From Sulfurimonas sp. HSL3-2 (GTDB lineage Bacteria; Campylobacterota; Campylobacteria; Campylobacterales; Sulfurimonadaceae): a DNA stretch of 64,000 nucleotides. Shown in pieces: positions 471 through 34,060 of this stretch. Both the position numbers and the translations under genes were made by a program. Below the pieces are notes generated by a model. That model searched no databases. It was not told where the DNA came from and saw only the letters and a program-made list of their open reading frames with translations. Each line of letters opens with the position of its first letter. Position 1 is the stretch's first letter. Where the stretch lies: NCBI RefSeq assembly GCF_039645965.1, contig NZ_CP147917.1, forward strand, positions 1,984,001-2,048,000. The letters run 5' to 3'.

Positions 471-1562
471 ATGTATAAAAGCTTTATTGCTGCCTTTATC
501 GTTATTATCATCCTTATTATCACAATATTTTTCTATTTTAGAGGCGAAGTAAAAGAGCAAAAACTCGATCATATCTTGGATCAGATCACCTCTGAACTCA
601 ATACTCAGCTCAAAACAAATCAGATGAATGCGCTTGAGATCGCTATCGTACTCTCACAAAACAGCGGACTGGTGAATGCTTTAGAAAATGATGATGAAGA
701 TCTCGGTTATAGTATCCTCTCAAAGATCACGGAAAATATTAAGAAAAATACCGACAGGTTCGTAAGAACACAGGTCATTACAAGCGATTACCTTATCTTT
801 GCAAGAAGCTGGGATAACGTATACGCAGGTATGCCCTTAGGTGATTATAGAACCGATCTTAATTATTTTAAAACTCACAGATCACCCCGTACTTCCATAG
901 AAGTAGGAAGAAGACTGGGGATCAAAGCTACCGTACCTATCTATAAAGACAACACGTTGCTCGGCTTTATCGAAGTAATAGACTTTTTTGAACCTCTTAC
1001 AGAGTTGTTCCGTGCGCAGGGGATAGACCTCTATGTCTTACTAAATGACAAATATTTCAATACGGCTATATTTATGCAGGAAAATATGACCGTCAATAAA
1101 TATATCATCGCTAACACCAACTATAACTCGAGCCATATCAAGGTTTTAAAAAGTATCGATTTTAAACAGTTAAAAGCCAACAGGATGTTATCGGCAAAAG
1201 ACAGGCATATCTTTTATGAGACGATGTATAATGGAGACGGTGAAACTATCGGAGCTTTCGTCTTTATCCTCCCCGATAAATATCTTGAATATTTTAGAGA
1301 TCCTGAAGATGATATCTCGTTTTTGATCAATGTCACCAGAAGCAGTTTATACAGTATAGAGAAAAAACAAAATGACTTTCAGGCGTACAAGTCATACACT
1401 CCTTCGGAACTCTCCTACATCAAAGATATCATCTCTGAAGAGGATGAAGCGGAGTTTTCAGAAAATGCGTACAAAAAACTGGATCAATACTCAAAAGACG
1501 AGTTGATCCAACTTATTTTGAACCGTAAAGTTGTTAAAAAAATAGATGGGAAGATCAGATGA
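471..1562 (+). CDS. membrane-anchored periplasmic sensor protein, Cache-like
   Basis: A 363-residue protein with one N-terminal membrane helix (about residues 4-23) followed by a large domain that should lie in the periplasm. The layout, a long helix and then an alpha/beta region with segments such as GIKATVPIYKDNTLLGFIEV, resembles double-Cache ligand-binding domains of chemoreceptors and kinases. No HAMP, kinase, GGDEF or methyl-accepting part follows, so it cannot signal alone. It ends 4 bases into the response regulator gene, with the histidine kinase next and soxX beyond that. I infer that it is the ligand-sensing partner of this kinase, perhaps for a sulfur compound. The Cache assignment is from the pattern only; the family was not searched. 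Confidence 0.6.
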   Translation: MYKSFIAAFIVIIILIITIFFYFRGEVKEQKLDHILDQITSELNTQLKTNQMNALEIAIVLSQNSGLVNALENDDEDLGYSILSKITENIKKNTDRFVRTQVITSDYLIFARSWDNVYAGMPLGDYRTDLNYFKTHRSPRTSIEVGRRLGIKATVPIYKDNTLLGFIEVIDFFEPLTELFRAQGIDLYVLLNDKYFNTAIFMQENMTVNKYIIANTNYNSSHIKVLKSIDFKQLKANRMLSAKDRHIFYETMYNGDGETIGAFVFILPDKYLEYFRDPEDDISFLINVTRSSLYSIEKKQNDFQAYKSYTPSELSYIKDIISEEDEAEFSENAYKKLDQYSKDELIQLILNRKVVKKIDGKIR

Positions 1563-2215
1563 AAATTTTACTTTTGGAAGATGAGTACTCTTTACGTATC
1601 AGTATAAAAGAGTTTTTAGAAGATATAGGTTACGAAGTGGACTGTTTTATGGATGGGCTAGAAGCATACGATGCTATCCATGAAAAAGCATACGAACTTT
1701 TACTTCTGGATGTCAATGTCCCTTCCATGAACGGTTTTAAACTTTTAGAGAACCTGCGCAATGATGATATGAAGATACCGACGATATTTTTGACATCAAT
1801 GACCGATGTGCAAAATCTCAAAGAGGGTTATGAAAGAGGCTGCTGTGACTACATAAGAAAGCCTTTTGACCTTGAAGAGCTGGAGCTTCGCATCAATCAT
1901 GCCTATAGAAGTTATTATCTCGATGACAGCGATATCATCGACCTCGGGCAGAATGCAACATACAATATGACCAAAGGAAAGCTCACCATCAACGGTGAAG
2001 AGATCGTACTGAGAAAAACAGAGAAAGATATGCTTGAAGTTCTGATAAAACATAAGAACTCTGTCGTCTCCATAGATATGTTCCAAGATGAAGTATGGGG
2101 TGAGTATGTAGAGCCCGCAACCATTAGAGTCCAGTTAAAAAATCTGCGTCAGAAACTGCCTGAGGGGATCATACATAACAGAAGATCTTTAGGATATATC
2201 ATTGAACGAAAATAG
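1559..2215 (+). CDS. OmpR/PhoB-family response regulator
   Basis: A 218-residue two-domain response regulator. The receiver domain occupies about residues 1-115: acidic pair at E7/D8, phospho-acceptor Asp 51 in LLLLDVNVPSMNGF, a conserved Thr near LTSMTD, and the Lys of YIRKPFD. A winged-helix DNA-binding domain follows (about 125-218), ending in the typical VQLKNLRQKL and RSLGYII segments. The start overlaps the sensor gene by 4 bases (ATGA), and the end overlaps the kinase by 14 bases, so the three are translationally coupled. OmpR-type regulators bind direct repeats about 11 bases apart; such repeats lie just before soxX, making the sox operon the natural candidate target (inference). Confidence 0.93.
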   Translation: MKILLLEDEYSLRISIKEFLEDIGYEVDCFMDGLEAYDAIHEKAYELLLLDVNVPSMNGFKLLENLRNDDMKIPTIFLTSMTDVQNLKEGYERGCCDYIRKPFDLEELELRINHAYRSYYLDDSDIIDLGQNATYNMTKGKLTINGEEIVLRKTEKDMLEVLIKHKNSVVSIDMFQDEVWGEYVEPATIRVQLKNLRQKLPEGIIHNRRSLGYIIERK

Positions 2216-3365
2216 ATACGCACTCAAAAACGCTCTTATATACACAGTGTTGATCAGCAGTATTTTGCTGGCACCGCTGTTTTTTTATTTTATCTATATG
2301 AAAAATATTTATTCTGTACAGAATGAACTGTTTTTAAAAGAGAAATCTCTGCTGATCATTAAATCGATGGAAGAGTTTAATCAAAATGATATCTATTTTG
2401 AATATCCAAGATTTAAGACTTTCAAATCAGGTCTGTACGATGTCAGATTTAGACCGATCTTTACATTGATAGATACGGAGATAAAAAGTTTTAAAAGTGG
2501 TTATTATCTCGACGGCTATAACGCTTTTTTGGTCGTACAGCTGCCAAAAAATAGATATTTCGGTGCAGATTATCTGATCTTGAACAACACCATCTCTTAT
2601 GCATCCATCTATAAGAATATTATGGTGATACTCTTTTCTATTGCCATAATCGTCTTTCTTTTAAGTATGTTTTTTCTGAACCGCTTTGCAGAACCTTTTA
2701 AAGCGGTCAACAAAAAACTGGACAACTTTATAAAAGATTCCATCCATGAGATCAACACGCCTCTGGCGATCATCAATGTCAATGTGGATCTCTATAATAG
2801 AAAAAACCCTACCAACAAATATCTCCAGCGTGTCAAAGGTGCCGCAAAAGTCTTATCGAACATTTACGACGATATGGACTATCTCATAAAGTACAACCGT
2901 CTCGAGTATGAAGATGAGAAGATCAATTTCACTCGTTTTATGAAAGAGAGGATAGAGTATTTTTATGATGTCGCTTTGATGAAAAACATACATATACAGA
3001 GCGATATAGAGGAGAATATCTTTATATTTATGAACCAGAAAAAACTGCGAAAGATCGTAGACAATAATATCTCCAATGCGATCAAGTACTCTTTTGAGAA
3101 CAGTACTATCCATATATCGCTTTTTATGAAATCAGATATATGTCATCTCAGTGTAAAAGACTCCGGAATAGGAATCAAAGATGTTAATCAGATCTTTAAA
3201 AGATACTATAGAGAAGACACAAACAAGGGTGGTTTCGGCATTGGGCTCAATATCGTAAAATCTATAATCGAAGAAGCAGGGATCGAACTCGATATCAAGT
3301 CAAAACTCAAAGAAGGTAGTACTTTTACCTACAAATTTCCGCAAAAAATCATCACTCATTCATAA
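2202..3365 (+). CDS. sensor histidine kinase
   Basis: A 387-residue inner-membrane histidine kinase with a TTG start that overlaps the regulator gene. The next in-frame ATG would remove the first membrane helix, so the TTG is preferred. Membrane helices lie at about 10-33 and 140-160, with roughly 105 periplasmic residues between them. No HAMP domain is evident. The phospho-acceptor is His 182 in SIHEINTPLAII; the N box is KIVDNNISNAIKYS, and the G boxes are KDSGIGIKD and GFGIGLNIVKSI. It should phosphorylate the regulator encoded just upstream. The separate sensor protein at 471 may supply ligand recognition. The gene ends 73 bases before soxX, so read-through into sox is possible. Confidence 0.92.
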   Translation: MNENRYALKNALIYTVLISSILLAPLFFYFIYMKNIYSVQNELFLKEKSLLIIKSMEEFNQNDIYFEYPRFKTFKSGLYDVRFRPIFTLIDTEIKSFKSGYYLDGYNAFLVVQLPKNRYFGADYLILNNTISYASIYKNIMVILFSIAIIVFLLSMFFLNRFAEPFKAVNKKLDNFIKDSIHEINTPLAIINVNVDLYNRKNPTNKYLQRVKGAAKVLSNIYDDMDYLIKYNRLEYEDEKINFTRFMKERIEYFYDVALMKNIHIQSDIEENIFIFMNQKKLRKIVDNNISNAIKYSFENSTIHISLFMKSDICHLSVKDSGIGIKDVNQIFKRYYREDTNKGGFGIGLNIVKSIIEEAGIELDIKSKLKEGSTFTYKFPQKIITHS

Positions 3366-3438: not shown

Positions 3439-3963
3439 ATGGTAAAGAATCTAACAGTTTCATTACTATTGGGATGCTCACTTTTTGCTGCTGATTACAG
3501 CAGTATTATCGAACATCCTAATGCAAGTAAGATTATTGAAAAAGATCTATTAGCTGCACCGAAAGTCTATAGTATGCCAGCAGGTTGTATAACAACAGAT
3601 GCAGCAGCGATAGCTAGAGGCGCTTATATCTTTCATAATCTTAACGGAAGTAAAGCAAAAGGGAATCCACCGGCTGGATTGAGTAAAAGTAACCCTGACG
3701 GTTCTGCAAAGCAATATGGAAATTGTGTTGCCTGCCATAACATCGAAGGTGCAAAAGGTGCCGGGAACATAGGTCCGGACCTACATAACTACAAACAGAA
3801 CTTCATCGACTCCGGTGCAAGAACTTTAGAGTTTGTGTTTCAAAAGATAGCAGATGCACGTATCGATAATCCGACAACACATATGACTATCAATTTAACT
3901 ACTAAATTATTTAACGAAAGAGAGATATGTGACCTGACTTCATATATCGTAGCTCCAAAATAA
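3439..3963 (+). CDS. soxX: SoxX, monoheme cytochrome c of the SoxXA complex
   Basis: A 174-residue periplasmic cytochrome c. A signal peptide occupies about residues 1-18, and a single heme-attachment motif CVACH lies at 96-100. A Met near the C-terminus (HMTINL region) can serve as the distal ligand, and the GNIGPDLHNY segment fits SoxX. SoxX pairs with SoxA to form the heterodimer that couples a sulfur substrate to the SoxY carrier Cys and accepts the electrons. A strong ribosome site (AGGAGG) precedes the ATG. It is the first gene of soxXYZAB, in the order I recall for Sulfurimonas. The two Cys residues outside the heme motif were not assigned a role. Confidence 0.9.
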   Translation: MVKNLTVSLLLGCSLFAADYSSIIEHPNASKIIEKDLLAAPKVYSMPAGCITTDAAAIARGAYIFHNLNGSKAKGNPPAGLSKSNPDGSAKQYGNCVACHNIEGAKGAGNIGPDLHNYKQNFIDSGARTLEFVFQKIADARIDNPTTHMTINLTTKLFNEREICDLTSYIVAPK

Positions 3964-3975
3964 AAAGGAAAGAAA

Positions 3976-4443
3976 ATGCAAAGAAGAGATTTTTTTAAAA
4001 CATTAGGAACAGTAGCAGTAGTTGGTGCGACAATCCCGGCAATGAGCTTCGCAGCTGAAACAAAAAAACAGGGTCCGAATGCTTTTACATACAAACAAGC
4101 TGTAGATGTGATCACAGGCGGTAAAACACCTAAAAAATCATCTAAGGTTCATCTAAAAGTACCTGAGATCGCAGAAAACGGTGCAGTTGTTCCTGTAACG
4201 GTCGAAGTTGACTCTCCGATGACTCCGGATGATTATGTTAAAGCGATCCATATATTTGCTACAAAAAACAATAACGTTCGTTGTTTGGATGCAAATCTGT
4301 CTCCGGCTAACGGAAAAGCAATGCTTTCTACACGTGTAAAACTTGGCGGCACACAAGATGTTGCGGCACTTGTCGAACTAAGCAACGGTGAGTTTTTAAT
4401 AGCTTCTCAAAGCGTTAAAGTGACAATCGGCGGTTGTGGTTGA
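3976..4443 (+). CDS. soxY: SoxY, sulfur-carrying subunit
   Basis: A 155-residue protein starting with the twin-arginine signal MQRRDFFKTLG and a hydrophobic stretch ending near SFAAE, so it is exported folded, as expected for SoxYZ. The protein ends VKVTIGGCG: the C-terminal swinging-arm Cys to which thiosulfate is conjugated. The usual ending is GGCGG; here one terminal Gly is missing and the TGA follows directly. SoxY works bound to SoxZ, whose gene is next. The spacing to soxX is 12 bases, consistent with one transcript. Confidence 0.95.
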   Translation: MQRRDFFKTLGTVAVVGATIPAMSFAAETKKQGPNAFTYKQAVDVITGGKTPKKSSKVHLKVPEIAENGAVVPVTVEVDSPMTPDDYVKAIHIFATKNNNVRCLDANLSPANGKAMLSTRVKLGGTQDVAALVELSNGEFLIASQSVKVTIGGCG

Positions 4444-4490
4444 TCTTGAGCAAGAAACCGCAGTAGAAAATAAAAAATAAAGGATTTAAA

Positions 4491-4826
4491 ATGGCAGAAA
4501 GAAAATCATTAATCAAAATTAAACCGAAAAAATATAAAGACGGCGAGATTGTAAAAGTAAACTTTATGATTATGCACCCTATGGAAACAGGTATGCGTAA
4601 AGATAAAAAAACAAAAGAGATCGTACCAGCTAAGTACGTTAACAGCATCAAGTTCGTGTATAACGGAAAGACTATCACAAATATGATCGTATGGGAATCT
4701 GTTTCGGCAAATCCTGTTTTCACGACATACATGAAAATAGACGGAAAAGGTGATCTGACTGTGACATACACAGACAGTACTGGTGAAGTTCACGAGCAAA
4801 GTATCAAGATTAAACCAAAAGGATAA
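4491..4826 (+). CDS. soxZ: SoxZ, partner of the sulfur carrier SoxY
   Basis: A 111-residue protein with no signal peptide, as is normal for SoxZ, which is carried to the periplasm with SoxY through the Tat system. Its sequence is typical: KPKKYKDGEIVKVNFMIMHPMETG near the start of the fold in two adjoining parts, a KTITNM segment, and a beta-rich end with VTYTDSTGE. The ribosome site AAAGGA lies before the ATG. It sits between soxY and soxA with only 3 bases before soxA. Confidence 0.93.
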   Translation: MAERKSLIKIKPKKYKDGEIVKVNFMIMHPMETGMRKDKKTKEIVPAKYVNSIKFVYNGKTITNMIVWESVSANPVFTTYMKIDGKGDLTVTYTDSTGEVHEQSIKIKPKG

Positions 4827-4829
4827 TCA

Positions 4830-5594
4830 ATGAAAACAATACTAAAGATAACTCTAAGCGTTGCTCTACTTTCTACACTCACTTTAGCCGATGAGCAGTT
4901 TGCAATGAGTGACAAAGACAGAGCCATGTATGCGGAGATGCTTGAAAACAATCCTGCAGACATGACTGTAGCCAGTGGTGAAGAGCTGCTTAGCTATATG
5001 GGCGGAGAAGCCGGACTTGCAAAGTACCTTGGTGTCAGTGAAGAAAAACTACCTGAGTATATTGCGGGTTTTCCACGTTATATTAAAAAATTCGACATGG
5101 TTGTCGGACTTGATCAAGTTTTACAAGCGATGATGCATGACGGCGGACACAAACCGCTGGAGCTTAAAAGCGGCAATATGTTTGAGATGCTTAGTTATGT
5201 TAAATCACTAGCCAACGATGTACCGATAAACATCGATGTCAATGCAAACCAACAGATGAAAGATGCGTATGCACTGGGTGAAAAAACATTTAATACAAAA
5301 AGAGGCGGACGCGGTTTAGCTTGTATAAGCTGTCACAGTTCGGATGTGATCGGTATGGTACTAAGAACACAGCCTCTACCTGATCTTGGTGTAAACAATT
5401 CAGGTGGGACATGGCCTGCATACAGAATGACAAAATCATCTGTATCAACGCTACAAAAACGTTTTCAAGGCTGTATGAAAAATGCCCTGTTAGCGGTAAT
5501 CCCTCTTGGTTCACCTGAGATGGTAGGTCTGGAAGTCTACGTCACGGACAAAGCAAAAGGGAAACCTATTGCAATTCCGGGATTAAAAAGATAG
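4830..5594 (+). CDS. soxA: SoxA, monoheme-type cytochrome of SoxXA
   Basis: A 254-residue exported cytochrome (signal peptide about 1-20). Only one heme motif is present, CISCH at 165-169; the first heme site found in diheme SoxA proteins is absent, so this is the monoheme type. Cys 214 in RFQGCMKNA matches the Cys heme ligand that is modified to a persulfide in known SoxA proteins, the proposed site of sulfur transfer to SoxY. Several QPLP and GTWPAYR segments also fit the family. The gene starts 3 bases after soxZ. Confidence 0.93.
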   Translation: MKTILKITLSVALLSTLTLADEQFAMSDKDRAMYAEMLENNPADMTVASGEELLSYMGGEAGLAKYLGVSEEKLPEYIAGFPRYIKKFDMVVGLDQVLQAMMHDGGHKPLELKSGNMFEMLSYVKSLANDVPINIDVNANQQMKDAYALGEKTFNTKRGGRGLACISCHSSDVIGMVLRTQPLPDLGVNNSGGTWPAYRMTKSSVSTLQKRFQGCMKNALLAVIPLGSPEMVGLEVYVTDKAKGKPIAIPGLKR

Positions 5595-5603
5595 GAAAAA
5601 AAT

Positions 5604-7364
5604 ATGGAAATTTCAAGAAGAGACTTTATGCATATTGCTGCGATCTTTGGTTTAGGTGCTGCAACTGCAGGATGTGCTACTCCAAAGTCCGTAGCTCAGA
5701 TCTCATTAAAAGATCTATATGACTTTAACGCAAAAGGAAACGTCACACTGCTTCATATGTGTGACCTTCACGCGCACATAAAACCGTTATACTGGAGAGA
5801 GCCTTCGACATTGATCTCGGCTCCTAACCTAGTAGGGACTCCGGGTTTCTTATGCGGTGAAGCTTTTGCAAAACATTACGGACTTGAACCAAGCAGTCTT
5901 GATGCATATTTTGACACTTATATGGACTTTGACACACTTGCAAGAAAGTTTGGAAAAATGGGCGGTATCGCTCATATGAAAACATATCTTGATCATGTGA
6001 GAGCTGAACGCGGAAATGAAAATATCCTGTTTTTAGACTCAGGAGACACATGGCAAGGTACGGGTGTAGCACTTAAGACCGGCGGTGAAGCGATCGTAAA
6101 AGCACAGAACTACCTTGGTGTCGACGTAATGGTCGGGCATTGGGAGTTTACTTACGGTAAAGAGAGAGTAAAAGAGCTGATCGAACTGCTTGATGCAAAA
6201 TTCATCTCTCAAAACATCGTCGGAAACGATCCGTTTGCAGATGACTACGAAGAGCTGATCTTTGAACCGTACACGATCGAAGAGAGAGGCGGAGCGAAGA
6301 TAGGGATCATCGGTCAGTCATTTCCATTTACCTCGACAGCGAACCCTAAAGAGTTTACAAAAGGGTGGAGTTTCGGTCTTAGACTTGAAACACTGCAGGA
6401 TTATGTAAATGAACTGAGAAATGAGCATAAAGTGGATTGTGTCGTCGTGTTATCACATGACGGTTTCAGCGTCGACCAAGAGGTGGCTAGAAAAGTCCAC
6501 GGTATCGATTTTATACTAAGCGGTCACACACATGACCCTTCTCCGCAGCCTATAACGATCAATAACACTGTTATTGTCATCGCAGGAAGCCACGGTAAAT
6601 ATGTGGGACGTTTAGATATCGATATCAAAGACGGAAAAGTCAAAGACTATGAGTACAAACTCGTACCTATCGCTTCAAATATGATACCTGCCGATCCGCA
6701 GGGTGTAAAACTGGTAGATGAGCTGTACGCTCCTTTTGCTTCTGAATTCAATGAAGTTTTAGGAAAGACAAAAAACATGCTTTATAAGAGAGATACGTTT
6801 TTCTCGACTTTCGATCAGCTGATAAACGATGCGATCATGGACGAGATGAAATGTGACATCTCATTCACACCTGGTTACAGATGGGGTACGACCGTACTTG
6901 CCGGTGAAGACATCTTAATGGATAACGTCTACGAGATGTGCGGTATCACATATCCGAACGTCTATACTTTTGAGCTCAAAGGCCAAAAGATAGCTTCTCT
7001 TTTAGAAGATATCGCGGATAACGTATTTAATGCGAATCCACTGTACCAACAAGGCGGTGATATGAGCCGTTTAGGCGGTGTTACGTATGATATCGCAGTA
7101 GCGAATAAAGCGGGCAAAAGAATATCTAATCTTAAAGTGGGAGGTAAGCCTATAGATCTAAATAAAACCTATGTAGTTTCATCATGGGGTGGAAATCTAC
7201 AAAATGCGGGGATGAATCTTCGTCAAGATATGATCAGACCTGTATATGACATTGTCAGAGATTACATAAAAAGAGAAAAGGTTGTCGACGTTAGTAACGA
7301 AGGTAATGTTACTGTAGTTGATTATGACTGCGGTTGTCCTGTCAAGGGGTCAAGAGGCTGCTAG
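5604..7364 (+). CDS. soxB: SoxB, sulfate thiol esterase
   Basis: A 586-residue periplasmic enzyme of the 5'-nucleotidase/metallophosphoesterase family that hydrolyses sulfate off SoxY-bound cysteine S-thiosulfonate. The start has a twin-arginine signal (SRRDFMHIAAIFGLG). The metal-binding pattern is clear: CDLHAHI, DSGDTWQG, GHWEFTYG, VVLSHDG and LSGHTHDP. A C-terminal nucleotidase-like domain follows from about residue 390. The last residues include four Cys in CGCPVKGSRGC and the preceding DYD region, a Cys-rich tail I cannot explain. soxB ends the soxXYZAB set; no soxCD is found in this window. Confidence 0.96.
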   Translation: MEISRRDFMHIAAIFGLGAATAGCATPKSVAQISLKDLYDFNAKGNVTLLHMCDLHAHIKPLYWREPSTLISAPNLVGTPGFLCGEAFAKHYGLEPSSLDAYFDTYMDFDTLARKFGKMGGIAHMKTYLDHVRAERGNENILFLDSGDTWQGTGVALKTGGEAIVKAQNYLGVDVMVGHWEFTYGKERVKELIELLDAKFISQNIVGNDPFADDYEELIFEPYTIEERGGAKIGIIGQSFPFTSTANPKEFTKGWSFGLRLETLQDYVNELRNEHKVDCVVVLSHDGFSVDQEVARKVHGIDFILSGHTHDPSPQPITINNTVIVIAGSHGKYVGRLDIDIKDGKVKDYEYKLVPIASNMIPADPQGVKLVDELYAPFASEFNEVLGKTKNMLYKRDTFFSTFDQLINDAIMDEMKCDISFTPGYRWGTTVLAGEDILMDNVYEMCGITYPNVYTFELKGQKIASLLEDIADNVFNANPLYQQGGDMSRLGGVTYDIAVANKAGKRISNLKVGGKPIDLNKTYVVSSWGGNLQNAGMNLRQDMIRPVYDIVRDYIKREKVVDVSNEGNVTVVDYDCGCPVKGSRGC

Positions 7365-7375
7365 TCACACGGTAT

Positions 7376-7397
7376 AACGGTAGCGGCAACTACCGTT
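7376..7397 (+). terminator. hairpin after soxB
   Basis: AACGGTAG and CTACCGTT form a perfect 8-bp stem with a 6-base loop, 11 bases after soxB ends. There is no run of T after it, so it may act as a weak terminator or an mRNA 3' end barrier that sets the ratio between sox and porin transcripts. The downstream porin starts at 7480. Confidence 0.5.
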
Positions 7398-7479
7398 AAA
7401 GTCTGTATGTGCAATAATGACAAAACAAACATCGACATTATTACACATGCAACATTATTTTTTACATAAAAGGGATGAA

Positions 7480-9018
7480 ATGAATTTGATAAAAATGAGC
7501 GCGATCACAGCGTTAGTATGTGGATTATGTATTTCAGCAAATGCTGATGACACAAAAGCAAAACGTGAATTAAAAAACAATATGATGGAAGTCTATAACA
7601 CTCTACCTAGCAGTGTTGACAACCTGGGTGATGCATTCACAAAGGGTGTATTTTACGGCCGTTTACGCATGAACGCTTTCAAATGGGACTGGAAAGATGA
7701 CGTAGCAGGTTCTATTCAAGACAATAAAGCATTCGGTCTTGGCGGTAGTCTTATCTATAAAAGTGCACCTTATATGGGTGTAAGTGCGACTGCAGGTCTT
7801 TACTATTCAGACAGTCCGTTTTCCGGTCTTCGCGACAGTGTCGCAGACTTAAAATACATCAAAGCGGGTAAAGACACATTCAGCCGTTATGATGCAAAAA
7901 CAAACGGCGATTACTATATGGCTGTGTTAGCTCAAGCATATCTTCAATACGACATCTCAAAAACTACGCTAAAAGCGGGTCGTCAAATATTTGAATCTTT
8001 CTTGACAAAATCTAACGATACAAAAATGATTCCAAATACATTTGAAGGTTTTGTATTAGAGACAAAAGAGATTCCTAAAACAAGAATTCGCGGTGCATAC
8101 TTCTATGCTCAAAAACTGCGTGACCACACGACATTTCATGATGTAATCACATACAGTGATTCAAATTCAACGTCATCACCAGCTACTTGGAACGGTAATG
8201 ACGACTCTGCAGTACATAAAGGTCTCAGCTTTAAAAACTTTGAAGCAGCAGGTAAAGATGTACACCATAAACTTATCCTTGCAGATGTAAGCAACAAATC
8301 TATCGATAACCTTAAAATCGACGTGACATACGCTGCTGTACCGGATGTCGTTTCATCGATCACAGGTGAGTTAAACTATAAGATAGCTCTACCGGGCGGA
8401 TATTCACTGACTCCGGGTATCCGTTATATGAAACAGATGGATAACGGCGGCGGTAAAGTCGGTGGTGCAAACTTAGGCGGTAGTCTTGTTACTTGGACAG
8501 GAAGTACTGCTACATATAACAGTACAAAAGGGTATAGCACTCCGGACAGTTTAGAGAGTTCACTCGGTATGGCTCGTTTAGTCCTTAAAAAAGGACCTTT
8601 AAAAGCACAGATCGCTTACTCTGCAGTTTCTGACGATGCAGATATCGTTGCTCCGTGGAGAGGTTTCCCGACAGGCGGATATACTCGTGCAATGGCTCAA
8701 TATAACTGGTATGCAAATACTAAAACTTATGATGCTGAAGTCGCATATGACTTTGGAAAAGCGGATATAATTCCGGGATTCAGCGCTATGCTTCGTTATG
8801 CGATACAAGATTTTGATGAGAAAAAACAAGCTGCCGGTGTTCAAGCAGACAGTAACGTAATCCATATGGATTTCCGTCAAAAGATCGCAAAAGGGCTTGA
8901 TGCAAAACTTCGTATCGGTCTAGTAAGTGCAGATAAACTAAGCTCTTACAGTTCAACACCGGGTATAGATAAAAACTCTTACAACGAATACCGTTTTGAG
9001 TTAAACTACCTGTTCTAA
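7480..9018 (+). CDS. outer-membrane porin, Campylobacterota Opr type
   Basis: A 512-residue beta-barrel protein. I place the start at the ATG at 7480 because AAAAGGGA lies just upstream and the signal peptide then reads normally (MNLIKMSAITALVCGL, cleavage near ANAD). An in-frame ATG at 7417 would add 21 residues that do not look like a signal peptide. The body has many alternating strands rich in aromatic residues and Gly, an FYGRLRMNAFKW start to the barrel, and the last residues FELNYLF end in Phe, the usual signal for barrel insertion. It lies right after soxB and may admit thiosulfate or other anions, which is inferred from position only. Confidence 0.85.
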   Translation: MNLIKMSAITALVCGLCISANADDTKAKRELKNNMMEVYNTLPSSVDNLGDAFTKGVFYGRLRMNAFKWDWKDDVAGSIQDNKAFGLGGSLIYKSAPYMGVSATAGLYYSDSPFSGLRDSVADLKYIKAGKDTFSRYDAKTNGDYYMAVLAQAYLQYDISKTTLKAGRQIFESFLTKSNDTKMIPNTFEGFVLETKEIPKTRIRGAYFYAQKLRDHTTFHDVITYSDSNSTSSPATWNGNDDSAVHKGLSFKNFEAAGKDVHHKLILADVSNKSIDNLKIDVTYAAVPDVVSSITGELNYKIALPGGYSLTPGIRYMKQMDNGGGKVGGANLGGSLVTWTGSTATYNSTKGYSTPDSLESSLGMARLVLKKGPLKAQIAYSAVSDDADIVAPWRGFPTGGYTRAMAQYNWYANTKTYDAEVAYDFGKADIIPGFSAMLRYAIQDFDEKKQAAGVQADSNVIHMDFRQKIAKGLDAKLRIGLVSADKLSSYSSTPGIDKNSYNEYRFELNYLF

Positions 9019-9032
9019 TAGTATTTAAAAAT

Positions 9033-9059
9033 GCTTAAAGGATTTGTCCTCCTTTAAGC
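9033..9059 (+). terminator. hairpin terminator after the porin
   Basis: GCTTAAAGGA pairs perfectly with TCCTTTAAGC across a 7-base loop, 14 bases after the porin stop. A T-run is lacking on the plus strand, so strength is uncertain. Confidence 0.6.
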
Positions 9060-9068
9060 CAATATTTC

Positions 9069-9083
9069 TGACGCATTGCGTCA
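9069..9083. promoter_or_regulatory. 15-base palindrome before the metallo-beta-lactamase-fold gene
   Basis: TGACGCA-T-TGCGTCA is a perfect 7+1+7 inverted repeat 43 bases before the ATG at 9126. Its size and position suit a dimeric regulator's operator, though it could equally be a small RNA hairpin. No second copy was noticed in the window. Confidence 0.35.
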
Positions 9084-9125
9084 AACTTTAGTAAGTGTAT
9101 AAAATTAAATAGTAAAGGTTGTGTC

Positions 9126-10028
9126 ATGAGATTACTTGTAGTAGCTGTTTTCTTCATTCATTCTCTTCTTGCATTTGAGTACCAGCTCAAACCACAACAA
9201 ATCAGTAGTAATATCTACTGTTTTTTCGGGCTACCGCAAGTAATCGATGAGCACAACAATGGCAATATGGTAAATTCATGTTTCGTTGACATGGGGACCA
9301 GTTATCTAGTCATAGACAGCGGTCCCACCTATGCCTACGCTAAAGAGGCTTACGGCAAGATCAATGCGATCAAAAAACTTCCTATATCTTATGTAATCAA
9401 TACGCATGTTCACGATGACCATTGGCTTGGAAACAGCTACTACAAAGAGCTTGGCATCGACATTGTAGGTTCCGTAAAATTCAAAAATGAAGCAAAACTG
9501 GCAATGACGAGGATGCAAAAACGCATTAGCAAAGAGGCGTATGCAAAAACGACTCAGGTATTTCCAAACGTATTCGTAGACAAAGAAAAAACACTTACCG
9601 TAAACGGCAAAAAAGTGTTTATAAAAAGTGTGAATAAAAAAGCTCATACAAGTAGTGATCTTTTAATTCATATTCCTAGCTTATCGGCACTGTTTGTCGG
9701 TGATATAGTATTTAACGATAGACTCCCGTCACTTAGAGACGGGAACATCAAAGAGTGGATAAAAGAGCTTGAAAAGGTCAAGTCATATAACGCAAAATAT
9801 ATAATCGGCGGTCACGGAGAGATGGTCACTCCACACTCCGTTGATTTTACCTATAACTATCTTGTCGAGCTAAAACAAAAAGTCTCTGCAGCCATCGAAG
9901 ATGGAGAAGAGATAGAGGATGCTGTCGACAATATCAAGATGGAGTCATACAAAAGTTCGCATATGTATAACGAACTTCAGAGACAAAATGTTGAAACGGC
10001 ATACAGAACACTGGAATGGGAACAATGA
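9126..10028 (+). CDS. exported metallo-beta-lactamase-fold hydrolase, SoxH-like
   Basis: A 300-residue protein with a signal peptide (about 1-17). The zinc-binding motif HVHDDH is at 94-99, followed by HTSSDLLIHIP and GDIVFNDRLPS, and the late GGHGEMVTP segment supplies another ligand region. The pattern fits the periplasmic subgroup near SoxH and quinoprotein-relay zinc hydrolases found next to sox genes; the physiological substrate of that group is not established. The stop overlaps the start of the next gene (ATGA), so the pair is translationally coupled. It begins a run of five exported proteins between the sox operon and 12374. Confidence 0.82.
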   Translation: MRLLVVAVFFIHSLLAFEYQLKPQQISSNIYCFFGLPQVIDEHNNGNMVNSCFVDMGTSYLVIDSGPTYAYAKEAYGKINAIKKLPISYVINTHVHDDHWLGNSYYKELGIDIVGSVKFKNEAKLAMTRMQKRISKEAYAKTTQVFPNVFVDKEKTLTVNGKKVFIKSVNKKAHTSSDLLIHIPSLSALFVGDIVFNDRLPSLRDGNIKEWIKELEKVKSYNAKYIIGGHGEMVTPHSVDFTYNYLVELKQKVSAAIEDGEEIEDAVDNIKMESYKSSHMYNELQRQNVETAYRTLEWEQ

Positions 10029-10186
10029 TAAAATCGGTTTTACTTTTTTTAACGACATCACTTTCTATGTACGCGGTGATGTTAAGAACAGTTCTACTTT
10101 TTTTAACGACGTCACTCTCTGTATATGCCGTCATGGCAAGAGTAGTTCTACTTTTTTTCGTAACGTCACTTTCATTACATGCTGTA
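10025..10186 (+). repeat. three tandem 54-base repeats, each encoding a whole signal peptide
   Basis: The units are 10025-10078, 10079-10132 and 10133-10186. By eye, units 1 and 2 agree at 42 of 54 bases and units 2 and 3 at 41 of 54. Many differences are at third codon positions, while the core VLLFLTTSLS is kept in units 1 and 2 and partly in unit 3. Each unit opens with ATG, but no ribosome site precedes the second or third. The divergence argues against an assembly artefact. Confidence 0.95.
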
Positions 10187-10507
10187 GAGTGGCACAGATA
10201 TGAAGATGCTCTCAAAGAGCAGCAGGTCAGCAACAAACCGATCATGATAGATGTGGTAAGAACAAACTGCCACTATTGCAGTGATATGGATAGAAAAGTG
10301 TTTGACGACAAAGAGATGTCGGTGTGGATAGAGAAGCGTTTTATACCCGTCAAGCTCAATCTTGATCATGATAAACTGCCACTTGGAATAAAAGTTATGT
10401 TTACCCCTACATTTTATTTTGTAAATAAAGAGGGCAAGATTTTAAAAAGAGTTCCCGGTTCTTGGGATATTCAAGACTTTAAAGATTTAACGGAGATGAT
10501 CAAATGA
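10025..10507 (+). CDS. exported thioredoxin-like protein with a triplicated signal peptide, SoxW-like
   Basis: A 160-residue protein. The start at 10025 is chosen because its ATG overlaps the upstream TGA (ATGA). The first 54 residues are three copies of an 18-residue signal peptide, each beginning with Met and ending in YAV or HAV. The globular part starts about Glu 55 and is a thioredoxin fold with the redox pair C82-H-Y-C85 and a cis-Pro segment FTPTFYFV. It resembles SoxW-type and other periplasmic thioredoxins that reduce Sox or cytochrome-maturation partners. Only the last copy is needed for an ordinary signal peptide. The stop overlaps the following DsrE-like gene by 4 bases. Confidence 0.88.
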   Translation: MIKSVLLFLTTSLSMYAVMLRTVLLFLTTSLSVYAVMARVVLLFFVTSLSLHAVEWHRYEDALKEQQVSNKPIMIDVVRTNCHYCSDMDRKVFDDKEMSVWIEKRFIPVKLNLDHDKLPLGIKVMFTPTFYFVNKEGKILKRVPGSWDIQDFKDLTEMIK

Positions 10508-10938
10508 TGAAATATATTTTTATACTGCTTTTAATGGGTACAGCACTTTTTGCAGATACAAGGTTTGCAGAGCCTAAACCTTCCATAGACAATCAGCGTC
10601 AGATCCTGTTTTCTATCAACAGCGGTGATGATGAAAAGATCAACCATGTTCTCAGCAGTGCGAACAATGTACTGAAATACTACGGACCGGAAAATGTCCA
10701 TATGAGAATAGTCGCTTATTACCACGGGATCAAAGCCGTGTTAAAAGCGAACAAAGAGATCGCCGAGCGCGTCGATACGCTTATGCAGTACGATGTGGAA
10801 TTCGTGGCATGTGAAAACACGATGATAACAAAACATATTAAAAAAGAGGAGCTGATCGACGGTACCGAAGTAGTGACAGCCGGCATCGTCGAGATAGCAG
10901 AAAGAATTAAAGAGGGATGGATCTATATCGTTCCCTAA
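10504..10938 (+). CDS. exported DsrE-family protein
   Basis: A 144-residue protein with a signal peptide (about 1-17), then the DsrE/DsrF-like alpha/beta fold: RQILFSINSGDDEK, KYYGPENVHMRIVAY and the MQYDVEFVACENTM segment carrying Cys 103, the position used as a sulfur-carrying Cys in this superfamily. Classical DsrE and TusD proteins are cytoplasmic; this one should be periplasmic. The start overlaps the thioredoxin-like gene by 4 bases (ATGATGA context). A sulfur-carrier role near sox is inferred, not shown. Confidence 0.8.
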   Translation: MMKYIFILLLMGTALFADTRFAEPKPSIDNQRQILFSINSGDDEKINHVLSSANNVLKYYGPENVHMRIVAYYHGIKAVLKANKEIAERVDTLMQYDVEFVACENTMITKHIKKEELIDGTEVVTAGIVEIAERIKEGWIYIVP

Positions 10939-10967
10939 GAAGATAAAAACAACAAAAAGGAAAAACA

Positions 10968-11885
10968 ATGAAAAAGATAATAGCACTGATCATCACTTTG
11001 AGTCTCTCGCTTTATGCAAAAAGAGACCTGCATATATTTGATGTAGACAATACCAATGGAAGCATAACGCCTGCTACCATAGCAAAAGCATTTTCACAAA
11101 ACGGCATTTCTGTCGCACTCAACAACGATATGACCACTCCGTTTAAAAAACAGTTTCAAAAGAGTGACTTCAAGATCTTCACGCTTATGACAATCTATGA
11201 ACCAAAACTGGATGACAAACTTGTAAAAAAATATCCGCATGCGGGGATATTCATCCCTAAAGGTATCGGCATCTATCAACATAATGACGAAAACACTTTA
11301 CATGTAAGCGTACTGACATCGGACGCAGAGGCAAAGATCATCGGTATCGATAACAATGATATCCTCAAAAGCATAGAGAGCAAAGTCTTAAAAAGCTTAC
11401 AAGCCGCTCTTCCTAATGCAAAACAGAGACTCAGTGAAGACAGCTTGAAAGAACATAGAGATCTCGTCACGGTATATGAATATGATCTTGACGGTGCAGA
11501 CTGGGAGGATGCAAAAGGAGAGATAGAGATGAACCTGGAAGGGGCATTTGCACCCCGCGGTTTTATCATGCCTGCTTCTATGGATTATGATGCTGATATC
11601 TTCCAAGAAGACGGCAGTGAAAACCCGTTTGATTTTTATGAGACGTACTCTATCTGTAAGCTGCCTGTTATCTATACAGTCGCAAAAAGCAGACCTGAAG
11701 CTTCTGCATTTGCACCGTGTACGACAATAGTATACAAGAAAAAAGATGAGGACAAGATAGTCATAGGCTTTCCGGCTGTTTACAACTGGATGAGCAGTGC
11801 AAAAGTCCAAGATAAAGAGGCTCAAGAGGTGCTGATGAAAGCACAAAAAGATTTTGAAGCTATTTTAAAAGAAGTTACAGAATAA
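10968..11885 (+). CDS. exported protein with DUF302-like domains
   Basis: A 305-residue protein with a signal peptide (about 1-17). The first half has SVALNNDMTTPFKKQF, KIFTLMTIYEP and HAGIFIPKGIGIYQ, which match the DUF302 pattern. The second half, containing FYETYSICKLPVIYTVAK and KIVIGFPAVYNW, looks like a second related domain. DUF302 proteins have no settled biochemical function but are often near sulfur-oxidation and redox genes. It sits between two DsrE-like genes and has a good ribosome site (AAAAAGGAAAAAC). It contains an exact TTACATGTAA site at 11298. Confidence 0.7.
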   Translation: MKKIIALIITLSLSLYAKRDLHIFDVDNTNGSITPATIAKAFSQNGISVALNNDMTTPFKKQFQKSDFKIFTLMTIYEPKLDDKLVKKYPHAGIFIPKGIGIYQHNDENTLHVSVLTSDAEAKIIGIDNNDILKSIESKVLKSLQAALPNAKQRLSEDSLKEHRDLVTVYEYDLDGADWEDAKGEIEMNLEGAFAPRGFIMPASMDYDADIFQEDGSENPFDFYETYSICKLPVIYTVAKSRPEASAFAPCTTIVYKKKDEDKIVIGFPAVYNWMSSAKVQDKEAQEVLMKAQKDFEAILKEVTE

Positions 11886-11909
11886 TAACTTACAACAAAA
11901 GGAAAATAT

Positions 11910-12374
11910 ATGAAAAAATTACTACTGCTTCTTGCATTTTTTAGTTTTTTAAATGCAGAAGAAGGGATAAAAAAAGTTGTTTTTGATCTAACGACAGGTG
12001 ATTTAAAAGTATTTGAAAAGAAAGTACTCTCAGGGATCGCACACCAAAAATCATATTATGAAGGCAAGATGGAAGAGCTGCAAGCCGCAGTCGTTATCCA
12101 CGGTGACGCTTATAAGTTTTTTGTAAAAGATGTAAGCAGTTCACCTTTTAAAGATGACAAAGAGCTTCAAAAAGAGAGTACGCAGCTTGCGACTAGGATC
12201 TCATCTCTTGTCGAGACATACGATGTAGAGTTTCTTATGTGTAATGCAGGTATGAAAAGTAAAAATATCAAAAAAGAGAATATCTTCAGTTTTGTAAAGA
12301 TCGTACCAAACTCGACTATCGGGCTCATCGATAAACAAAACGAAGGTTATGCCTATATACCTATAGCAAAATAA
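11910..12374 (+). CDS. second exported DsrE-family protein
   Basis: A 154-residue protein with signal peptide MKKLLLLLAFFSFLNAEE and a DsrE-like fold. The candidate sulfur-carrying Cys is Cys 111 in VEFLMCNAGMKSKNI, aligned with VEFVACENTM of the DsrE-like protein at 10504, so the two are distant paralogues. It is the last gene of the plus-strand sulfur cluster and ends directly against the convergent SDR gene with no gap between them. Confidence 0.78.
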   Translation: MKKLLLLLAFFSFLNAEEGIKKVVFDLTTGDLKVFEKKVLSGIAHQKSYYEGKMEELQAAVVIHGDAYKFFVKDVSSSPFKDDKELQKESTQLATRISSLVETYDVEFLMCNAGMKSKNIKKENIFSFVKIVPNSTIGLIDKQNEGYAYIPIAK

Positions 12375-32376: not shown

Positions 32377-32397
32377 TTCGAAAAAAAAAGGTTAGAA

Positions 32398-32712
32398 ATG
32401 TCAAAGTTTACAAATGTCGATATCGTAAAAAAAGCAAATATCTATTTTGACGGAAAAGTCACAAGCCGTACAGTAGAGTTTCCAAACGGAGAGAGAAAAA
32501 CTTTAGGGATTATGCAGCCGGGCGAGTACACTTTCGGGACAGGCGATGCAGAGATCATGGATATGTATGCAGGAGAGTTCTCTGTCAAACTTCCTGACAG
32601 CGAAGAGTTCGTAGATATGAAAGCACCTTGTGTATTTGAAGTAGGAGCAAACACTTCATTTGATATCAAAGTCAAGACTGTAACAGACTACTGCTGTTCA
32701 TACATAAAATAA
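32398..32712 (+). CDS. ppnP: pyrimidine/purine nucleoside phosphorylase PpnP
   Basis: A 104-residue cupin-fold nucleoside phosphorylase (former DUF1255). The start at [19 protein letters not shown] is chosen because it matches the family start and lies 22 bases after a -10 box. [19 protein letters not shown] and [13 protein letters not shown] are typical. It releases ribose-1-phosphate and free base from several nucleosides. It ends at a terminator shared with the convergent rubredoxin gene. Confidence 0.93.
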
Positions 32713-33373: not shown

Positions 33374-34060
33374 ATGCTAAAACAAGCACATGAGGCTTAC
33401 AATAAACAAGATTTCAAAACTGCACTTGATATATACACAAAACTAAGTAATGAGGGTAACGCAGAAGCCGAGACTTCTCTGGCTTTCATGTACCAAAACG
33501 GGCAAGGATGCGAGCAAGACCTGCAAAAAGCGGTAGAACTTTACATGGTTGCTGCAGAGAAAAAACAGCCCTACGCGATGTACAACCTTGCACTTTTTTA
33601 TGCAAACGGACTAAACGGCGTGCCTTTTGACCAGTACAAAGCGCACCAGCTTTTTTTAGAAGCTGCCGTTAGAGAAGTTCCGCCTGCGATGTATGAGGTG
33701 GGTGTGATGTTTGAAAAAGGGCTAGGCTGCGAAGGTAACTTCAGTGAAGCGGCATTTTGGTATGAGGAAGCGGCAAAACGCGGACATCTTGAGGCATTTA
33801 ACAACCTTGGCGTTCTCTACAAAGACGGTCACGGAGTCATTCAGGACGATAAACGCGCTTTTATCTGTTTTTCACGTGCGGCTGAGGGAGACTTAAAAGA
33901 GGGTCTTTACAACCTTGGACTTCTTTACGATCAGGGGATCGGATGCGAAGAGGATCACGACAAAGCACTTGATCTATGTAGAAAAGCGGCATATAAAGGG
34001 CACTTAAAAGCAAAAGAGATCATCAAATCTCTTCAAGAAGACGGAAAGATAGTTTTCTAA
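33374..34060 (+). CDS. Sel1-like repeat protein
   Basis: A 228-residue protein without a signal peptide, built almost wholly of Sel1-like TPR repeats (about six, for example AEAETSLAFMYQNGQGCEQD, AMYNLALFYANG, AFNNLGVLYKDGHGV, GLYNLGLLYDQGIGCEED). Such proteins are scaffolds for other proteins. Since no export signal is seen, it should stay in the cytosol, unlike the secreted Hcp proteins of Helicobacter. It is followed by ribE 25 bases later. Confidence 0.85.
   Translation: MLKQAHEAYNKQDFKTALDIYTKLSNEGNAEAETSLAFMYQNGQGCEQDLQKAVELYMVAAEKKQPYAMYNLALFYANGLNGVPFDQYKAHQLFLEAAVREVPPAMYEVGVMFEKGLGCEGNFSEAAFWYEEAAKRGHLEAFNNLGVLYKDGHGVIQDDKRAFICFSRAAEGDLKEGLYNLGLLYDQGIGCEEDHDKALDLCRKAAYKGHLKAKEIIKSLQEDGKIVF

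Follow-up and report, generated by a model that had tools for sequence, protein, structure and literature searches.

Three tandem copies of a predicted Sec signal peptide precede a SoxW-like thioredoxin in Sulfurimonas sp. HSL3-2

Described tandem leaders and the sox locus

Tandem leaders are known from microcin PDI, whose McpM precursor carries two back-to-back 18-residue double-glycine leaders, only the first of which is required for export (PMC5311971); microcin S is probably a further example (PMC10233263). Sec signals have been placed in tandem before one mature protein by engineering, as in the SPamyQ-SPBsGGT construct, an artificial fusion of two different signals in Bacillus subtilis (PMC12652682). 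Autotransporters have long N-terminal Sec signals with an extra N-terminal part; they are described by domain organisation, and we found no repeat of a whole signal peptide in the abstract (PMC2805444). A literature search, conducted mostly in papers accessible without subscription, found no natural duplicated or triplicated Sec signal peptide. The original prediction that no such triplication had been described was too strong in view of microcin PDI, although the leaders of that system are not Sec signals.

The gene studied here belongs with the single-signal SoxW-like thioredoxins of related sox clusters, with which it shares a soxH-like gene directly upstream, a CxxC thioredoxin fold and a start codon overlapping or adjoining the upstream stop (precursors 34–73% identical). 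A described example is Sulfurovum indicum, in which a cluster of dsrE, soxW and soxH1 adjoins soxABXYZ and its expression rises under thiosulfate oxidation (PMC10045233). All of these relatives carry one signal peptide, whereas the present gene encodes three. It lies in a stretch of 64,000 nucleotides, referred to below as the window, together with the following genes:

5604–7364, + strand: soxB (thiosulfohydrolase; TIGR04486 at 805 bits, cut-off 550)
9126–10028, + strand: gene for a SoxH-like hydrolase of the metallo-beta-lactamase fold, upstream, with a stop codon that overlaps the thioredoxin start
10184–10507, + strand: predicted mature periplasmic thioredoxin-fold protein, SoxW-like, with a CHYC motif (Pfam Thioredox_DsbH, 5.5e-12; Thioredoxin_7, 4.7e-9)
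10504–12374, + strand: DsrE-domain, DUF302 and DsrE-domain genes, downstream (family search)

The protein has the thioredoxin fold with a CxxC. The CHYC motif is present, both cysteines of the CxxC are invariant across 48 sequences, and the AlphaFold2 model of the domain has a pLDDT of 93–98, with DsbH, DsbD-gamma and thioredoxins as its best matches among solved folds in the PDB. The protein reached no equivalog model in an NCBIfam search, and the models nearest to the upstream gene are SoxH-related, matched below their curated cut-offs. Given soxB, the SoxH-like neighbour and the Sulfurovum indicum cluster, we call the gene SoxW-like; it lies in the sox thiosulfate-oxidation cluster, and its product may exchange electrons with Sox proteins in the periplasm.

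The cluster as a whole (3439–12374) looks complete and collinear: soxXYZAB-like genes, an OprD-like porin gene, the soxH-like and soxW-like genes, and the DsrE, DUF302 and DsrE genes. Just upstream of it, positions 471–3365 hold sensor, response-regulator and histidine-kinase-like genes. The names of soxX, Y, Z and A and of the regulators come from the sequence only; those of soxB, the porin and the downstream genes come from a family search. The two DsrE-domain genes (10504–10938 and 11910–12374), each with its own signal peptide, stand on either side of the DUF302 gene, and a periplasmic sulfur-carrier role for this pair is a possible question.

The repeat array and its absence from relatives

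The leader of the soxW-like gene consists of three units of 54 bp, each encoding 18 residues from Met to Ala-Val, all in frame with the thioredoxin domain:

10025–10078, + strand: signal-peptide unit 1, MIKSVLLFLTTSLSMYAV; begins with an ATG that overlaps the upstream stop codon (ATGA) and is preceded by a weak Shine-Dalgarno-like stretch, GGAATGGGA; low hydrophobicity
10079–10132, + strand: signal-peptide unit 2, MLRTVLLFLTTSLSVYAV; 78% identical to unit 1 and 74% to unit 3; low hydrophobicity
10133–10186, + strand: signal-peptide unit 3, MARVVLLFFVTSLSLHAV; closest of the three to the orthologues in hydrophobicity and in having Leu at -3 and Ala at -1; no Shine-Dalgarno sequence at its ATG

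The array is far from a chance likeness. At a shift of 54 the sequence matches itself at 82 of 108 positions, against 0.284 per position by chance (binomial tail 2e-24), which makes it the strongest tandem signal in the window (best score elsewhere 60, periods 12 to 300), and Tandem Repeats Finder recovered it independently (period 54, score 160). Three consecutive whole signal peptides before a thioredoxin-fold domain, as first proposed, were thus found at exactly the positions given. The proposed identity of about three quarters was right for units 1 and 2 (42/54, 78%) and units 2 and 3 (40/54, 74%), and too high for units 1 and 3 (35/54, 65%).

Elsewhere in the window, the second-best tandem signal, at 33480–33700, is weak (60/108 at period 111, 59/108 at period 219), and a 16-bp unit occurs twice at 32387–32418 (Tandem Repeats Finder score 50).

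Several other accounts of the repeat were considered and set aside. Overlapping or antisense genes (a 94-aa ORF on the + strand and a 103-aa ORF on the - strand) are unsupported by anything, and these frames stay open because the 54-bp period holds every frame in register. No evidence was found for phase variation through T7 runs; the copies stay in frame, the period being a multiple of three. RNA structure as the cause of the repeat was likewise rejected, the mRNA being not unusually structured (z -0.88).

We compared the locus with 69 related genes, obtained by genome searches from at least 10 genera within its family and order, and measured how far the first CxxC cysteine lies from the start codon and from the stop codon of the upstream gene. 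All 69 have one signal peptide and a start-to-CxxC distance of 40–51 aa, with a mode of 45, against 81 (45 + 36) in the window gene. In a few rows (e.g. L019, L054, L056 and L063) the automatic start choice took an internal start, leaving leaders about 4–7 aa short, which does not affect the conclusion. The nearest relative, from the sister genome G003, is 73% identical and has a leader of one unit, MIKIPLLCLITALSLYAV, likewise of 18 residues. The upstream stop lies 239 nt from the Cys in the window and 131 nt in G003 (121–149 nt in other relatives with the same upstream gene). The difference, exactly 108 nt or 2 x 54, indicates a gain of exactly two whole in-frame units, and as these distances describe it, the triplication is precise, in-frame and lineage-specific.

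No further tandem leader was found among the orthologues of 228 family genomes, and a search of 399 genomes of the order for the triple leader with the mature start gave no second tandem case. A scan of genome contigs matched only the sister MAG contig JAHJGM010000068.1, and the single hit in a pattern scan of viral contigs is taken as chance. The soxW-like gene does not occur throughout the genus: G004, G005 and G006 have no close orthologue at E 1e-20, although G005 has a completeness of only 83%.

Age of the units and constraint upon them

The units differ from one another at 12, 14 and 19 of 54 positions and from the G003 leader at 15–16 of 54. Synonymous divergence (dS) among them is 0.43–1.22, against 1.10 for the mature region compared with G003, although these are rough values from about 14 synonymous sites. 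Units 1 and 2 have in common a Thr-Thr in the core that is absent from unit 3 and from the sister, and in a fitted star tree unit 2 is the least changed. Since the divergence among units approximates that of the sister-species split, the array is old rather than an assembly artefact, in agreement with the view that the duplications are not recent; on these rough values, the duplication would fall near the split from the sister lineage.

The same comparison had been taken to suggest that the peptides are under selection, of which we see some sign. In a neutral simulation run at the observed number of nucleotide differences, units 1 and 2 would share 10.6 residues and units 1 and 3 would share 7.2; the observed numbers are 14 (P 0.017) and 11 (P 0.011), and units 2 and 3 share 12 against 9.6 (P 0.098). 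A codon model of the three units gave an omega of 0.34 (2dlnL 5.27), with 2 of 60 neutral simulations as extreme (bootstrap P about 0.03). The test is a weak one, however, and with the sister added omega was 0.52 and 2dlnL fell to 2.55. All units retain Ala at -1 and Val at +1, each residue being encoded by three different codons (GCG/GCC/GCT and GTG/GTC/GTA). Because the tests are not mutually independent and the stretch is short (54 bp), the extra units are likely to be under constraint, the statistical evidence being weak and short of proof; they may instead be drifting, or be positively useful.

Export and processing of the composite signal

Each unit has the features of a Sec signal cleaved by signal peptidase I: a basic residue at position 3 (K, R and R), a hydrophobic core with VLLF, and Ala at position 17. 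The hydrophobic core is kept between units, as originally claimed, yet in hydrophobicity units 1 and 2 fall below almost every single-copy orthologue (1–2 of 69 lower than unit 1, 0–2 of 69 lower than unit 2). Unit 3 ranks mid-range, with 35–41 of the 69 lower and a Kyte-Doolittle 12-residue maximum of 2.59 against an orthologue median of 2.58. It also has Leu at -3, as do 38 of the 42 orthologues with the 45-aa spacing; unit 1 has Met at this position and unit 2 has Val. Reading the site from the sequence and the orthologues, we place the likely working cleavage after the Ala of unit 3 (codon 10181–10183), between SLHA and VEWH.

Double-glycine cleavage motifs (GG/GA) do not occur in the units, which end in YAV, YAV and HAV, and no dedicated type I exporter gene adjoins the array, its neighbours being sox, DsrE and DUF302 genes. 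The gene thus lacks the defining features of the microcin type, a bacteriocin with two double-glycine leaders and a type I (ABC) exporter, and the array, Sec-type and attached to a thioredoxin, is best classed as a novel form of the ordinary Sec signal.

With moderate confidence, we favor the following account. In one lineage, the part of the soxW-like gene that runs from its start codon through the codon of the first mature residue would have been triplicated in tandem and in frame, by replication slippage or unequal exchange. Translation would begin at the first ATG by coupling to the stop of the soxH-like gene, and the precursor would carry a composite Sec signal of about 53 residues. Signal peptidase I would cut after unit 3, either at once or after units 1 and 2 had been cut, and would release a soluble periplasmic thioredoxin identical in kind to that of the relatives; the resulting protein is probably ordinary. 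The extra units would persist since they do little harm, and would stay hydrophobic and cleavable because they must still pass through or pair with the Sec machinery.

A second account, which we consider doubtful, treats the triplication as adaptive: the leaders would be cut at each Ala in turn, and the units would alter the rate, timing or yield of export. The Ala and Val residues held in all three units through different codons speak for it, as does the residue identity of unit 1 with units 2 and 3 above the neutral simulation. Precedents exist in the two sequentially cut leaders of microcin PDI (PMC5311971) and in an engineered tandem Sec signal that raised secretion of gamma-glutamyl transpeptidase by B. 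subtilis by 63% over the single signal (PMC12652682), but these are artificial or belong to another secretion system. The weakened cores and non-Leu -3 residues of units 1 and 2 also count against stepwise cutting, and the occurrence of the tandem leader in one lineage only makes a general benefit doubtful. That the array is a natural, maintained triple Sec signal, its units engaged or cut in turn and tuning the export of a Sox thioredoxin in this one lineage, is a tentative idea, with perhaps one chance in several of being right.

Both remaining functional accounts are less likely than the composite signal. Uncut units 1–2 or 1–3 could tether the thioredoxin to the inner membrane near an electron donor, and the hydrophobic N-terminal 54 residues and the unusual -3 Met at the unit 1 site would fit such anchoring. 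However, unit 3 keeps an intact site, hairpins would need longer linkers than those present, and the fold model gives the leader as one long helix (residues 2–49) rather than three hairpins, although such a prediction is poor evidence on leader topology. Each core has about 14 residues and an estimated insertion energy near zero (0.06 to 0.60). Since the cores are so short and marginal, three separate membrane segments, one of the two outcomes first suggested for the product, look unlikely, and anchoring as a whole is improbable.

The other suggested outcome was internal initiation at one of the three Met codons; with a start at the second or third Met, only one signal would be made and units 1–2 would form an untranslated or regulatory leader. 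An ATG does open each unit, and unit 3 alone would restore the normal 45-aa spacing. Assuming the usual 16S tail, however, Shine-Dalgarno pairing is absent at ATG3 (+0.7 kcal/mol) and confined at ATG2 to bases directly adjoining the start codon, whereas ATG1 has GGAATGGGA upstream (duplex -6.1 kcal/mol) and retains the coupled ATGA overlap with the soxH-like stop found in most relatives. A plausible ribosome-binding context is thus predicted at ATG1 only, the mRNA structure is ordinary, and coding constraint is seen across the units; we rate internal initiation slightly below anchoring and find the suggestion unsupported. A sequencing or assembly artefact can be dismissed as highly improbable, because the copies differ at 22–35% of sites without loss of frame or codon pattern, and the genome forms one contig of 2.24 Mb that is 99.98% complete.

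Overall, the gene variant is real, old and unusual. It amounts to a natural experiment on the tolerance of the Sec system, in which a whole signal peptide was tripled in frame and kept during divergence on the scale of sister species. The array offers a direct test of which signal in a series is read by Sec and signal peptidase, be it the first, the last or each of them, a question of relevance to the use of tandem signals for producing proteins. Stepwise processing at the first two units, if true, would be of greater interest; should the extra units simply be tolerated, the locus would show a route by which long, odd signal sequences arise.
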